This document shows positions 37,190 through 55,030 of a stretch of DNA of 64,000 bases, in pieces. Below the pieces are notes generated by a model. That model saw only the letters and a program-made list of their open reading frames with translations, ran no database searches and was not told where the DNA came from. Positions within the stretch are counted from its first letter, which is position 1, and every line of letters starts with the position of its first letter. Source of the stretch: Litchfieldia alkalitelluris (GTDB lineage Bacteria > Bacillota > Bacilli > Bacillales > Bacillaceae_L); the NCBI RefSeq assembly GCF_002019645.1, contig NZ_KV917374.1:1500696-1564695 (forward strand), read 5' to 3'. Both the position numbers and the translations under genes were made by a program.

Positions 37190-37690
37190 ATGCCACAAGG
37201 AGCTACTGAAACAAGTACCTTAAAAGTGGGGGACAAAGCACCAGATTTTACGCTTCAAGCCCATGGCAACCGTAGAGTCACTTTAAGTGAATATCGCGGA
37301 ATTAGTAATGTGTTTTTATGTTTTTATCCTCTAGATTGGACACCTGTCTGAGGCGCGCAAATGCCTTCTTACGAGGACGATCTTCCTCGCTTTGAAGACT
37401 TTGATACCCAAGTTTTGGGTATAAGCGTTGATAGTGTACATAGTCACGAGGCATGGCAAAAATCAATTGGTGGAGTATCTTACCCACTTTGCTCTGATTT
37501 TTACCCACATGGAGAAGTATCTGAAAAATATGGTGTTCTTCGTACAAAACAAGGAGAACCAGCATACGGAGCTTCCGAACGTGCATTATTTATTGTCGAT
37601 AAAGAAGGAATCATTCAATTTATTGATGTCCACCCAATCGATCGACAACCAGATAATGAAGAATTATTTGATGTTTTACGTAAACTTTAA
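37190..37690 (+). CDS. Selenocysteine-containing peroxiredoxin (in-frame UGA)
   Basis: The 166-residue reading frame has TGA at codon 54 (37349-37351) and continues without other stops to TAA 37688. The flanking protein is a normal AhpC/TSA-type peroxiredoxin: VGDKAPDFTLQAHG before, FLCFYPLDWTPV-U-GAQMPSYEDD across, then FDTQVLGISVDSVHSHEAW, YPLCSDFYPHGEVSEKYGV and ERALFIVDKEGIIQF. The UGA sits exactly at the peroxidatic cysteine (T-x-x-C). Cys101 in YPLCSDF may resolve. ATG 37190 follows GAAAGGGGAATTATT. Sec-peroxiredoxins are a known family. It would reduce peroxides in the cytoplasm. A GrdB-like selenoprotein gene follows 33 bp later. Confidence 0.9.
37349..37389 (+). promoter_or_regulatory. 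UGA codon and candidate bacterial SECIS (peroxiredoxin)
   Basis: After TGA 37349-37351, a 6-bp stem CGAGGA (37372-37377) / TCCTCG (37384-37389) closes a loop CGATCT with G at the second position. The UGA-to-loop distance is 26 nt, within the range known for bacterial SECIS elements. It lies within the coding sequence, as required in bacteria. Confidence 0.7.
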
Positions 37691-37723: not shown

Positions 37724-38425
37724 ATGGAACTCTCAAGAAAAGCAATCCCATATACACCTGTGGACAAGCCCCTCCATGAAATGACGATTATGATCGTTTC
37801 AACTTCCGGGGTACATCTAAAGGATCAAGAAGCATATAATACGGATCCAGCTGAAGGCGATGCGACGTTTCGTATCATCCCAGGAGATGTTGATTCTAAA
37901 GATCTAACGGTAACTCATGCAGCACCAAAAGATCATTATAATACCGATTATCCGAAGGAAGATATTAATTGTGTATTTCCAATTGATCGCCTAAGAGAAA
38001 TGGTAGACGACGGTGATCTTGGTGGGGTAGCTGAAAAGCACCTAACAATGATGGGCTATTCTATGAGGTTAAATAAGATTAACAAGGAAACGATTCCAGC
38101 TTTAGTTAAAGAAGTAGTGCGCTCTAAAGCAGATGCAGTACTTCTGACAGCTGGCTGACCGCTTTGTCATCGCACTGTAGTTACAGTGCAGCGTGGAATC
38201 GAAGCACAAGGTATCCCAACGAGCTTGATAACTCTAGATGTTGAGCAATCAAGTTTGATGAGACCTCCTCGTGCTATTCATCCAGTGGGCTTTGAGTTTG
38301 GTCATTCCCTAGGAAAGCCGAATGATAAGAACACTCAGATGAAAGTGTTATATGCAGCATTAGCTGAATTGGTTGAAAGACAAGAACCTGGGAATATTCA
38401 CGAATCACATTTCCCAACATACTAA
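37724..38425 (+). CDS. GrdB-like selenoprotein with UxxC motif (first copy)
   Basis: 233 residues when TGA 38156-38158 (codon 145) is read as selenocysteine; the frame continues to TAA 38423. The N-terminal part holds MIVSTSGVHLKDQEAYN and INCVFPIDRLREMVDDGDLGG; the Sec region is AVLLTAG-U-PLCHRTVVTV, a U-x-x-C redox motif; the C-terminal half has RPPRAIHPVGFEFGHSLGKP. This is the glycine/sarcosine/betaine/D-proline reductase selenoprotein B family, but much shorter than clostridial GrdB and with no GrdA or GrdC nearby. It probably acts as a stand-alone reductase. ATG 37724 follows AAGGGAGG. Same operon as the Sec-peroxiredoxin, so the two may share a pathway. Confidence 0.88.
38156..38189 (+). 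promoter_or_regulatory. UGA codon and candidate SECIS (GrdB-like, first copy)
   Basis: TGA 38156-38158 is followed by a perfect 7-bp stem GCACTGT (38172-38178) / ACAGTGC (38183-38189) with loop AGTT, G in the second position. The loop starts 20 nt after the UGA. Confidence 0.78.
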
Positions 38426-38964: not shown

Positions 38965-40059
38965 TTATGTTTGTTTTAATGGAATTTGTACAAGCACAGT
39001 TGTTCCGTGTTCATGACTATCAATCATCATCGATCCTTTGTGAGCATCAATAATTCTTTTAACAATTGATAATCCTAACCCAATTGACTGCTCTTTGGTT
39101 GTGAAAAAAGGTAATTCCACTTTATCAGCAATCATTGCTGGTATCCCATGTCCATTGTCATTTACTTGAAGTAATAAAGAGCTTGGAAGGTTATTTGTTA
39201 TATTCAACTGAATTTTACCATTTGTTCCAATTGCCTCGATTGAATTGCGAACAAGGTTTTTTATCACTTGTTTTAATTGGAAAAAATCAGCGTGAATAGT
39301 GATACAAGTTTTTTCTGATTTTTTAAACTCAATATTCTTAATGTATAATTCATCCTCAAATTCTATGTATATCTCATTAAGTAAGTGATCAATTAAAAAG
39401 TCCTTTTTTACAAGAGCTGGAGGCTTTGTAGTTAATTCAAAATCTCTTAACACTTCTCTAATTTTATCAACTTCATTCATCATGATGGTAGAGTATGGAG
39501 AATGAGTTTCCTCCAATTGTAGAAACCCTCGAATCACTTGAATCGAATTACCTATTTTATCTGATATTCCGGCAAATAACTCTTCGAAATGCTTCAATTG
39601 TGATAGTGTTGTTGAGGAACCCTTCTCAACTTTAGAAATTAAAGAAACAATTATCTCAGCAAATAAATTTAATTTCTGCACATGATCATTTGTAAACAGA
39701 AATGGATCAGGATCTGTTGCACAAATAGTTCCGAACATGGTTCCGTCTTCAAGGAGGATTGGGACCCCCAAATAGGAACCAACTTTACAGGAATAAATTA
39801 CATCCATATTGCGTGTGGTTGGATTTTGTTTTGTGTTATTTATGATAAGTGGCTCACGGCCATCTGCAAAGATTAGTTGTCATAATGCATGATTCAATTG
39901 TATTGAATCCCCAGTTTTAATGAGAGAACCATTGTTGCTCTGAGCCCTTAGAACTGAAAAAATATCATTACCTGTTCGAGAAATGAACATTGTTCTTGTA
40001 CCAATTAACTCCTGTGCCATGTTAAGGATTAAATCAAGCTTTTCATCTAACCCGTTCAT
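38965..40059 (-). CDS. GAF-domain sensor histidine-kinase-like protein with in-frame UGA (putative selenoprotein)
   Basis: 364 residues when TGA 39880-39882 (codon 60) is read through. ATG 40059 has an excellent AAAGGAGGCGACTCTT. Residues 1-150 are a GAF domain: KLDLILNMAQELIGTRTMFI, NHAL-U-QLIFADGREPLII, VGSYLGVPILLEDGTMFGTI with CATDP. In related GAF domains the UGA position is a conserved cysteine before the RLV..G.PLVI segment. After it come a dimerisation helix pair (IGNSIQVIRGFLQLEE) and a HATPase_c domain with N-box (LVRNSIEAIG) and GLGLSIVKRI. The usual phosphoacceptor His of HEIRNPL appears replaced (SDKIGNS). No response regulator is adjacent. Alternative: a gene inactivated by a nonsense mutation. 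Confidence 0.75.
39850..39882 (-). promoter_or_regulatory. UGA codon and candidate SECIS (GAF kinase)
   Basis: On the minus strand, TGA 39882-39880 is followed after 17 nt by TGGC-CGTGA-GCCA: a 4-bp stem with a 5-base loop whose second base is G. The loop starts 21 nt after the UGA. The stem is shorter than in the other three cases. Confidence 0.5.
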
Positions 40060-40204
40060 AAGAGTCGCCTCCTTTAGGGAAAAGTGTTCTATATCTTACT
40101 ATAACATTTCTACAAAATCATTACAGGCTCTTTTGAACCAATTTATTACAGTTTTTATAAGTTGGTAACATCGGAAGCAATGTAGATACAGCTTTTGGGC
40201 TTCC

Positions 40205-43443: not shown

Positions 43444-43497
43444 GACTAAGAGAGGGAAGTTAGTGTGTACAAAAAGTGTGAAACAATAACTCTAACC

Positions 43498-43567
43498 TCT
43501 CGCAGTCAAACTATTTACGGCAGTTTGGTAGAAACTTTTGGACCATATCTCCAAGATTATACGAGTG
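43498..43567 (-). ncRNA. Purine riboswitch aptamer (guanine-type)
   Basis: The minus strand has P1 CTCG/CGAG, the conserved TATAATC, GATATGG, AGTTTCTACC and CCGTAAA elements, and the closing GACTGCGAG. The specificity base in the last junction is C (GACTG), as in guanine-binding members; adenine-binding members have U. It lies 100 bp upstream of adeC. Confidence 0.92.
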
Positions 43568-43802
43568 GATCTGTTTATAAAAATATTAGTTCATATTCTA
43601 TATGCCTCAAGTAGACTGTGTCAATGTAAAGCATTTAAAGAATTAAACTATGCTATTCGTAGTTTATTTTGGAACAAAGTAAACTATTAGTAACTGAAGG
43701 TTTAAATAGACTCGCTTCTTAGAAATAATGAAGTGTATAGTATGGTCAAAATAAAAGTAATGATTAGCTTCCAAGCTTATATGACTATGTAAGTAAAGTA
43801 AA

Positions 43803-43830: not shown

Positions 43831-43854
43831 TTGTACAAGATAATTGTTTTTTTC

Positions 43855-43946
43855 ACTAGGGGAGCTATTTCAAATTGGCTGAGACTAAAGGGAGACCTTT
43901 TAAACCCTTTGAACCTGATCTGCATAACTGCAGCGGAGGGAAGTGT
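43855..43946 (+). ncRNA. TPP riboswitch (THI element)
   Basis: All conserved blocks are present: GGGGAGC near 43859, GGCTGAGA (43877), CCCTTTGAACCTGATCTG (43905), ATAACTGCAGCGGAGGGAAG (43924). The variable arm AAAGGGAGACCTTTT lies between. It senses thiamine pyrophosphate and, with the downstream terminator, controls the operon that follows. Confidence 0.97.
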
Positions 43947-43981
43947 GTACTGTTTTTAGGATATTTTAATTGTTCTAGCTC

Positions 43982-50743: not shown

Positions 50744-50839
50744 AAGTGACGGAAGAAAATCCCTATATATTTTAAGTTAACAAACCGTTTTTATATGATA
50801 TAATAAATCGACAATTACATTGAAATCCGCATCCAGCGG

Positions 50840-50872
50840 TGGAGGTTCTAGCTACCCTCTTTAAAAAACTAA
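50840..50872 (+). ncRNA. preQ1-I riboswitch
   Basis: GGAGGTTCTAGCTACCCTCT followed by TTAAAAAACTAA is the compact H-type pseudoknot of class I preQ1 riboswitches. It lies 60-90 bp upstream of queC. Confidence 0.95.
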
Positions 50873-50875
50873 GGA

Positions 50876-50912
50876 AAACAGGACTGCTTTCTTTAGTGGT
50901 GCTGTTTTTTTC
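50876..50912 (+). terminator. preQ1 riboswitch terminator
   Basis: AACAGGACT and AGTGGTGCTGTT (with mismatches) form the stem, followed by TTTTTTTC. It gives preQ1-dependent termination before queC. Confidence 0.75.
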
Positions 50913-53949: not shown

Positions 53950-54240
53950 ATGTCCTTACCATATTTAAAAGAAGCCATAAAAAACGGGGATAATGATAAA
54001 CTGATTCGTTATGTACGTCTTCATTTTGGTGATGGGAATGAACAAGCAGGTCGTAATGAAATTGATAAGTCGTGGATAGAAGCTCTTAAATTGCTATTAG
54101 ATTCACCAAATACAGATCGAGAGTTTATTTTCGATACGTTGAAGGAGAAGGATGCAGAAACGTTAGCACATCTTTATTTTCACTTGCATTTTTACTTTTT
54201 AAAAAGATCGGGGGATTGGATTCATGATGGAAACCTCTAA
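53950..54240 (+). CDS. Small helical protein upstream of the second GrdB-like gene
   Basis: 96-residue predicted all-helical soluble protein: MSLPYLKEAIKNGDNDKLIR, a middle EALKLLLDSPNTDREFIFDT and the end HLYFHLHFYFLKRSGDWIHD. ATG 53950 fits AAAGGAAGTG; ATG 53932 precedes that site. It overlaps the following selenoprotein gene by 17 bp, so the two are translationally coupled and may interact. I do not recognise a family. Confidence 0.65.
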   Translation: MSLPYLKEAIKNGDNDKLIRYVRLHFGDGNEQAGRNEIDKSWIEALKLLLDSPNTDREFIFDTLKEKDAETLAHLYFHLHFYFLKRSGDWIHDGNL

Positions 54241-55030
54241 AAATGAACAATTGCGACCTGGGCTATGGGATACAGTAAATGAACGATATCCTGGTTCTAT
54301 GATAAAGAAAGATGATTTTATACCGTTAGCACCTTTAAAGAAGCCTATTCGGGAGTCAAAATTAGCATTTATCTCTACTTCTGGAGTCCAATTAAAAGGA
54401 ACTCTTCCTTTTGATACTGTTCATCCTATAGGAGATTATACATATCGAAAAGTACCATCAAGCTCTAAGCCAGCTGACTTGGAGATCCACCAATTAAAAT
54501 ATCCAACAGTCGGTGCCAACCGAGATATTAATGTGATCTATCCAATTGAAAGATTACAGGAACTAGCAGAAGGTGGAGTAATAGGTGGTTTAACTGAAAA
54601 TTTCTTTTCATTTATTGGCTATAATATGGACCCTGATAAACTAGAAGAAACTTTAGCAGAAAATATTGCTGATGCAGTAGTAAAAGAACATGCAGATATT
54701 GCCCTTTTAGCACCTGCATGACCTATTTGTCATCAATCGATCGCGCTAGTTCAGCGTGCGTTAGAAAAGAAGGGCATACCAACGGTTTCCTTATCAGTAG
54801 CTTTAGATGTAACGGAATACATTAAACCCCCAAGAGCTGTATTTTTACCATTTATGATGGGCCATCATTTCGGGGTACCTTTTCATAAGGAACTGCAGAA
54901 AAATATTATCTTAGAAGCACTTAATCACTTGGAAAATGCCAAGGAAAGCGGAGAGATTCGTAAACTTCCATATAAGTGGGCAACAGCAAGAAAAGAAGGA
55001 AAAGCTTTGGAAGCAGAGGGACGGTTCTAG
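54224..55030 (+). CDS. GrdB-like selenoprotein with UxxC motif (second copy)
   Basis: 268 residues with TGA 54719-54721 (codon 166) read as selenocysteine; ends at TAG 55028. It is a diverged paralogue of the gene at 37724: KLAFISTSGVQLKGTLPFDT, INVIYPIERLQELAEGGVIG, then IALLAPA-U-PICHQSIALVQRAL and PPRAVFLPFMMGHHFGVPFH. An N-terminal extension (GLWDTVNERYPGSM) is absent in the first copy. Both keep U-x-x-C then His. ATG 54224 follows GGGGGATTGG. The last codons lie in a GGGACGGTTCT repeat. Probable thiol/selenol reductase; substrate unknown. Confidence 0.88.
54719..54758 (+). promoter_or_regulatory. UGA codon and candidate SECIS (GrdB-like, second copy)
   Basis: TGA 54719-54721 is followed by CGCGCT (54742-54747) and AGCGTG (54753-54758), a 6-bp stem with one G-U pair, loop AGTTC with G second. 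The loop starts 26 nt after the UGA. It begins AGTT like the SECIS at 38179. Confidence 0.72.

Follow-up and report, generated by a model that had tools for sequence, protein, structure and literature searches.

Prokaryotic selenoproteins were inventoried in 2026 as 119 families (PMC13188914, Table 1), and the accompanying review considers that most of those still uncharacterised probably have redox functions. None of the families in that table is a GAF domain, histidine kinase, cyclic di-GMP (c-di-GMP) enzyme, SpoIIE phosphatase or STAS protein; the table has no GAF or sensor entry, nor does it list any signal-transduction domain, whether sensory or output. The gene described here lies in a 64,000-nucleotide stretch of the Litchfieldia alkalitelluris genome (the window). 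Judged from its sequence, it very probably encodes a selenoprotein in which selenocysteine (Sec) occupies a sensory, output-coupled GAF domain, an estimate that leaves the chemistry of the residue aside. With the listed families the gene shares a UGA codon at a cysteine column, a hairpin shortly downstream, and SelA, SelB, SelC and SelD.

Free methionine-R-sulfoxide reductases are stand-alone enzymes with a GAF fold and reactive cysteines. The window GAF domain matched 17 PDB sequences at E up to 10, none of them such a reductase, and kinship with these enzymes was set aside. The nearest solved sequence is the GAF domain of a diguanylate cyclase (PDB entry 4zmu, E 6.5e-10). It has cysteine at both columns of interest, those of Sec60 and Cys113; at the first of these the window protein has the predicted Sec instead. 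To our knowledge, no redox role is known for GAF domains of the 4zmu type. NifL, as described in PMC8063818, is a redox sensor with a GHKL domain that has no kinase activity and acts on its partner by contact. It joins a redox sensor domain to an HATPase-like domain, as the window protein would, but its sensor is PAS with flavin adenine dinucleotide instead of GAF with Sec.

For GAF domains with the in-frame UGA (UGA-GAF), NCBIfam offers no dedicated Sec/GAF model among the best 25 matches each for the window protein and eight other UGA-GAF proteins; the matches listed are output-domain models. Among the open PMC literature matches listed, there is no published account of a Sec-GAF or a Sec sensor kinase. 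As far as the sources checked go, UGA-GAF is a new selenoprotein domain family: Sec in place of Cys with a selenocysteine insertion sequence (SECIS) is already known; what is new is to find it in a sensory module.

The gene and its predicted read-through product

Read from ATG 40059, the frame runs for 364 codons to a TAA and contains a single in-frame TGA (39882-39880), at codon 60. The first-pass annotation had proposed this start, noting an excellent ribosome binding site, and had proposed read-through into GAF and HATPase domains. Both proposals stand: the Shine-Dalgarno sequence AAAGGAGG is at 40075-40068, and Pfam matches in the read-through product exceed their cut-offs for GAF (PF01590, 38.7 bits against a gathering score of 22.4) and for HATPase_c (PF02518).

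The same annotation spoke of a histidine-kinase-like protein. The label 'histidine kinase' is apt for the HATPase_c domain, whose N and G boxes are kept (DNGHGI, GLGLSI), but not for the H-box. Pfam gave no HisKA row at E 0.001, and the H-box reads SDKIGNS, with Asp167 at the place of the phospho-acceptor histidine of the HisKA type. Across 21 distinct GAF-HATPase genes this residue is His in 13 and Asp in eight, Asp being found in 7/11 UGA genes compared with 1/10 Cys genes. Because Asp167 replaces the phospho-acceptor, the window protein is probably no classical histidine kinase, and we would expect, with good but not full confidence, that this member lacks histidine autokinase activity.

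Exchange of UGA and cysteine

A 17-row GAF profile (A3) was applied to the window's own genome, to 398 genomes each from the class and the phylum, and to 100 relatives. Scoring was limited to the best nine candidates per genome in the class and phylum scans, and to the best five in the family scan of the order described below. A GAF row was obtained for 127 of the 128 loci scanned; merging of near-identical loci left 94 that are distinct in the 180 nucleotides (nt) around the site (L002-L012 were left out, the same genes having re-entered as later loci). Codon 60 in these 94 related domains is TGA in 37, TGT in 29 and TGC in 28. The residue aligned with the UGA is thus always Cys (57 domains) and never Trp, the pattern looked for in selenoproteins, and the expectation that homologues would carry Cys or UGA at this column holds for 94/94. 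Cys113, a second thiol position, is likewise kept in 94/94. Scanned apart, another 67 named loci (L072-L138), which are distant forms or come from other phyla, gave 70 rows, all Cys; the named-genome scan covers the best 80 of 229.

The exchange can be followed in full-length genes. Among the 100 relatives, full-length orthologues with a single TGA occur in eight other genomes, and stop-free ones in three; the resulting nine UGA and three Cys orthologues align in one column. The 396 genomes of the order contain 20 full-length family genes (453-574 bits), 11 with one TGA and nine without a stop. The family is sharply separated, the next match having 230 bits and covering the HATPase half only. 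For the GAF domain alone (100 relatives, E 1e-24), 57 rows comprise 29 with one TGA, 28 with none, and none with TAA or TAG; in the class sample, rows G725 and G709 each show one TAA. A quick tree of the 94 domains requires at least 12 Sec/Cys changes, at least five of them forced by starred branches; the tree has several long end branches, and the direction of change is not readable from it. One genome, G078, has a Cys GAF protein of 290 residues (L225) alongside a UGA GAF-STAS protein (L239).

UGA forms come from the following named hosts: Litchfieldia salsa, an uncultured Bacillaceae bacterium, Bacillus pinisoli, Schinkia azotoformans, Tumebacillus permanentifrigoris, T. flagellatus, and a metagenome-assembled genome named Alkalihalobacillus macyae. 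Among the named hosts of Cys forms are Priestia megaterium, P. aryabhattai, Metabacillus crassostreae and Calidifontibacillus oryziterrae. In the phylum sample, seven genomes have a row at E 1e-22, all from the same class, and 82 genomes from the class of G759 yielded one row at 1e-12, without a stop. Since these are small samples searched at strict thresholds, UGA-GAF genes may still occur outside the Bacilli.

A hairpin that accompanies the UGA

In the bacterial SECIS model the loop lies 16-37 nt beyond the UGA, and G is among its first two bases. A small hairpin whose loop begins 21 nt past the UGA and has G as its second base had been pointed out in the window gene, and is indeed present at 39862-39850. 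Its counterparts are general. An in-frame pattern, GG-N-CGNGA-N-CC, recognised by visual inspection of the sequences before being counted, is present in 37/37 UGA genes and in 0/57 Cys genes (checked over 57 nt). Its distance from the UGA is 18 nt in 32 genes, 15 nt in three and 21 nt in two; in all 37 the loop begins 18-24 nt past the UGA and has G as second base, within the limits of the model.

The base pairs are conserved even where the codons differ. The third bases of the glycine and acidic codons form a Watson-Crick pair in 37/37 (UA 23, CG 10, GC 3, AU 1). With GGG or GGA as glycine codon, the acidic residue is Asp (GAC, GAT), so that swaps of Glu for Asp preserve the pair; here the protein sequence yields to the RNA pair. 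The second pair outward is Watson-Crick in 33/37, with three more G-U, and the third in 32/37, with two more. When partners were permuted among the 36 distinct hairpins, the observed pairing was reached in 0/20000 trials for each of the three inner pairs; the fourth pair gives no signal (13/36, as in the permutation), and the fifth forms in 20/36 compared with 11.3. Over seven pairs, 91.3% of cells pair, compared with 74.9% after shuffling, and the covariation score is 0.534, compared with 0.207 for shuffles (0/500) and 0.026-0.248 for slid controls; because the rows are related, these pairing figures are not probabilities. The pair types recur across different outputs and genera. Conservation of UGA plus hairpin in sister genomes, which the first-pass annotation had proposed to look for, was therefore found, together with compensatory changes.

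Some members have their own variants. The clade of L228, L242 and L243 has a version of the SECIS with a G-C hairpin pair and Asp as the acidic residue; L228 and L242 are GAF-PAS-HisKA kinases. L211, a Cys form of about 403 residues from a genome with SelB (G076), has TGT in the Sec column and then GGCAAGCGGGAGCCG. That sequence is likely a SECIS relic, and L211 perhaps represents a recent change from Sec to Cys.

Selenocysteine machinery and selection

The genome (5.43 Mb) encodes the means of Sec synthesis and insertion: SelA (552 bits), SelB (363.8), tRNA-Sec (57.8) and SelD (425.6) all score above curated cut-offs. Absence of these genes would have spoken against a selenoprotein. The genome's selD itself carries one TGA. 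SelB occurs in 58 of the 100 relatives: in 19/19 with a UGA-GAF gene and in 39/81 others (Fisher p 1e-5). Thirty further genomes, consisting of all six remaining UGA genomes of the order and class scans plus 24 hand-picked genomes without a UGA row, divide similarly (6/6 compared with 7/24; p 0.003). Decay beyond the UGA, which would likewise have spoken against a selenoprotein, is not seen in relatives: the downstream region is conserved, and dN/dS (the ratio of nonsynonymous to synonymous substitution rates) is 0.07-0.19 in 7/7 pairs, indicating purifying selection.

One sensory domain, many outputs

The UGA-GAF family is broader than the first-pass annotation supposed. Pfam analysis of 23 of the 37 UGA proteins revealed ten output arrangements, with an output domain after the UGA in every case. 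Kinase-type arrangements are GAF-HATPase (1), GAF-PAS-HisKA-HATPase (5), and the latter with a receiver (1); the window's GAF-HATPase has ten full-length orthologues among the other UGA genes. The c-di-GMP type comprises GAF-GGDEF (3), GAF-GAF-GGDEF (1), GAF-GGDEF-EAL (2), GAF-PAS-GGDEF-EAL (3) and GAF-GGDEF-GAF-GGDEF-EAL (1). GAF-SpoIIE (3) and GAF-STAS (3) complete the set. The window's own genome has three UGA-GAF genes, the window gene included.

This variety suggests, with fair but incomplete assurance, a Sec-based plug-in redox detector that serves several signalling systems of the Bacilli, with repeated exchange of Sec and Cys. These would be histidine kinases and hybrid kinases, the enzymes that make and degrade c-di-GMP, SpoIIE-type phosphatases, and STAS proteins.

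Weighing the interpretation

Codon 60 is almost certainly read as selenocysteine. The support is of several kinds: the UGA/Cys column, the covarying hairpin, the Sec genes, the co-occurrence with SelB, and purifying selection.

Several observations pull the other way. The related rows are not independent, and the search itself had leanings: the member-finding profile contains GREP rows, favouring members with the GREP motif, and Cys113 belonged to the search pattern of the named-genome scan. The window's own hairpin consists of only four consecutive Watson-Crick pairs. Five hairpin regions fold no better than shuffles (z +0.45, +0.25, +0.27, -0.63, -0.53), and the best fold of the L226 region differs from the hairpin. 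Neither pairs changed on both sides (4; 313/500 shuffles as high) nor further pair types (12; 64/500 as high) are clearly above shuffles. The Cys forms L182, L184, L189, L191 and L193 retain 'GRE' in the protein, so the motif in the hairpin region is not purely imposed by the RNA. Finally, of the 100 relatives, 39 have SelB but no UGA-GAF row at the E threshold used.

How else might the UGA be explained? A nonsense mutation, leaving a pseudogene with either no product or the internal frame of 280 residues made alone, would accord with a plain list of open reading frames (ORFs), which gives only ATG 39807-38965. It is scarcely credible, and was rejected, given that the same UGA and hairpin recur in 37 distinct genes under purifying selection, and that no Shine-Dalgarno sequence is seen by eye before ATG 39807. 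Decoding of the UGA as Cys or Trp, through near-cognate reading or an altered code, would equally account for a frame that stays intact and conserved past the UGA. However, UGA terminates six of the 45 window ORFs examined (62 are listed), the hairpin goes only with UGA, the aligned residue is never Trp, and SelB is present in 25/25 UGA-GAF genomes tested. A changed code was rejected, and this kind of decoding altogether is highly improbable.

Other alternatives accept selenocysteine and differ over its use. The UGA could be a switch for selenium status: when selenium is low it would terminate translation, the output domain would not be made, and the residue would sense nothing else. Since the output domain follows the UGA in 23/23 scanned proteins, output would depend on selenium supply. 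However, the column is Cys in 57/94 domains, some of them in genomes without SelB above cut-off, which argues that the chemistry of the residue matters and not a supply switch alone; the switch is an unlikely account. Much the same small weight falls to an enzymatic GAF domain, peroxidase or methionine-sulfoxide-reductase-like, with Sec catalytic and signalling secondary. The existence of GAF-fold reductases that use cysteines counts in its favour; against it stand the absence of such a reductase among the 17 PDB matches and the signalling output joined to every UGA-GAF protein scanned.

A proposed model for Sec-GAF function

The preferred interpretation, selenocysteine in a sensory domain, leads to the following model. 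SelB and Sec-tRNA would decode UGA-60 with the hairpin shortly after it as guide, and so place selenocysteine in the GAF domain at the Cys position of related proteins. The selenol may be oxidised reversibly by peroxide, disulfide or another reactive species; sensing of redox state or electrophiles by the Sec-GAF is a reasonably likely function. Oxidised Sec60 might form a selenenylsulfide with the invariant Cys113, although this bond is a tentative element of the model, rather doubtful on present evidence. Oxidation of Sec60 would alter the conformation of the GAF domain and hence the output domain. Because the window protein keeps its ATP-binding domain while Asp167 stands in for His, it would be expected to act on a partner by contact, or in a phosphatase-like manner, rather than by histidine autophosphorylation.

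Other features of the window

Three other UGA/Cys genes had been reported in the window, and all are present (Table 1). The peroxiredoxin gene is a selenoprotein gene of known type. The two PrdB/GrdB-like genes (UPLCH, UPICH) have hairpins after the UGA, as judged by eye.

The neighbours of the Sec-GAF gene are genes for a major facilitator superfamily transporter and a PrdB-like selenoprotein. The peroxiredoxin gene is close by as well. In L. salsa, hsp20 directly adjoins the GAF gene, and neither a peroxiredoxin nor a PrdB-like match lies in the 12.4 kb covered there. A tblastn comparison (E 1e-8) of 11 window neighbours with 12 named loci revealed shared neighbours in L. salsa alone. A conserved peroxiredoxin/PrdB-like/GAF neighbourhood is thus not upheld, and no conserved neighbour among these 12 loci names a partner.

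Table 1. Coordinates of the Sec-GAF gene, its elements and other features (window positions, except those marked C1)
Feature	Position	Strand	Remark
Sec-GAF-HATPase gene, UGA predicted to be read as selenocysteine	38965..40059	-	364 codons + stop
In-frame UGA, codon 60	39880..39882	-	alignment with 94 distinct homologous GAF domains
SECIS-like hairpin UGGC-CGUGA-GCCA (TGGC-CGTGA-GCCA)	39850..39862	-	loop 21 nt after UGA
GAF domain, residues 4-141	39637..40050	-	Pfam PF01590 (4-137), PF13185 (4-141)
HATPase_c domain, residues 261-362	38974..39279	-	Pfam PF02518, 69.4 bits
Cys113 of GTICA, second invariant thiol position	39721..39723	-	94/94 GAF domains
Asp167 at H-box phospho-acceptor His position	39559..39561	-	sequence comparison
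Shine-Dalgarno AAAGGAGG upstream of ATG 40059	40068..40075	-	
GAF-PAS-HisKA-HATPase gene, second UGA-GAF of own genome	C1:4280451-4280879 (GAF)		
GAF-GGDEF-GAF-GGDEF-EAL gene, third UGA-GAF of own genome	C1:868114-868542 (GAF)		922 residues
Peroxiredoxin, U54 (PVUGAQ)	37190-37690	+	below cut-offs of matched NCBIfam peroxiredoxin models
Short PrdB/GrdB-like selenoprotein gene, U145	37724-38425	+	
Short PrdB/GrdB-like selenoprotein gene, U166	54224-55030	+	
Purine riboswitch	43483-43584	-	upstream of adenine deaminase gene
Thiamine pyrophosphate (TPP) riboswitch	43848-43958	+	upstream of LuxE-like acyl-protein synthetase gene
PreQ1 riboswitch	50836-50878	+	

Implications

UGA-GAF genes are probably annotated as truncated, with starts placed after the UGA. 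The natural Sec and Cys forms, found on the same outputs, provide a ready comparison for learning what Sec adds to a sensor. If the interpretation is correct, selenium would be a direct part of bacterial signalling in the Bacilli, reaching two-component, c-di-GMP and partner-switching outputs.
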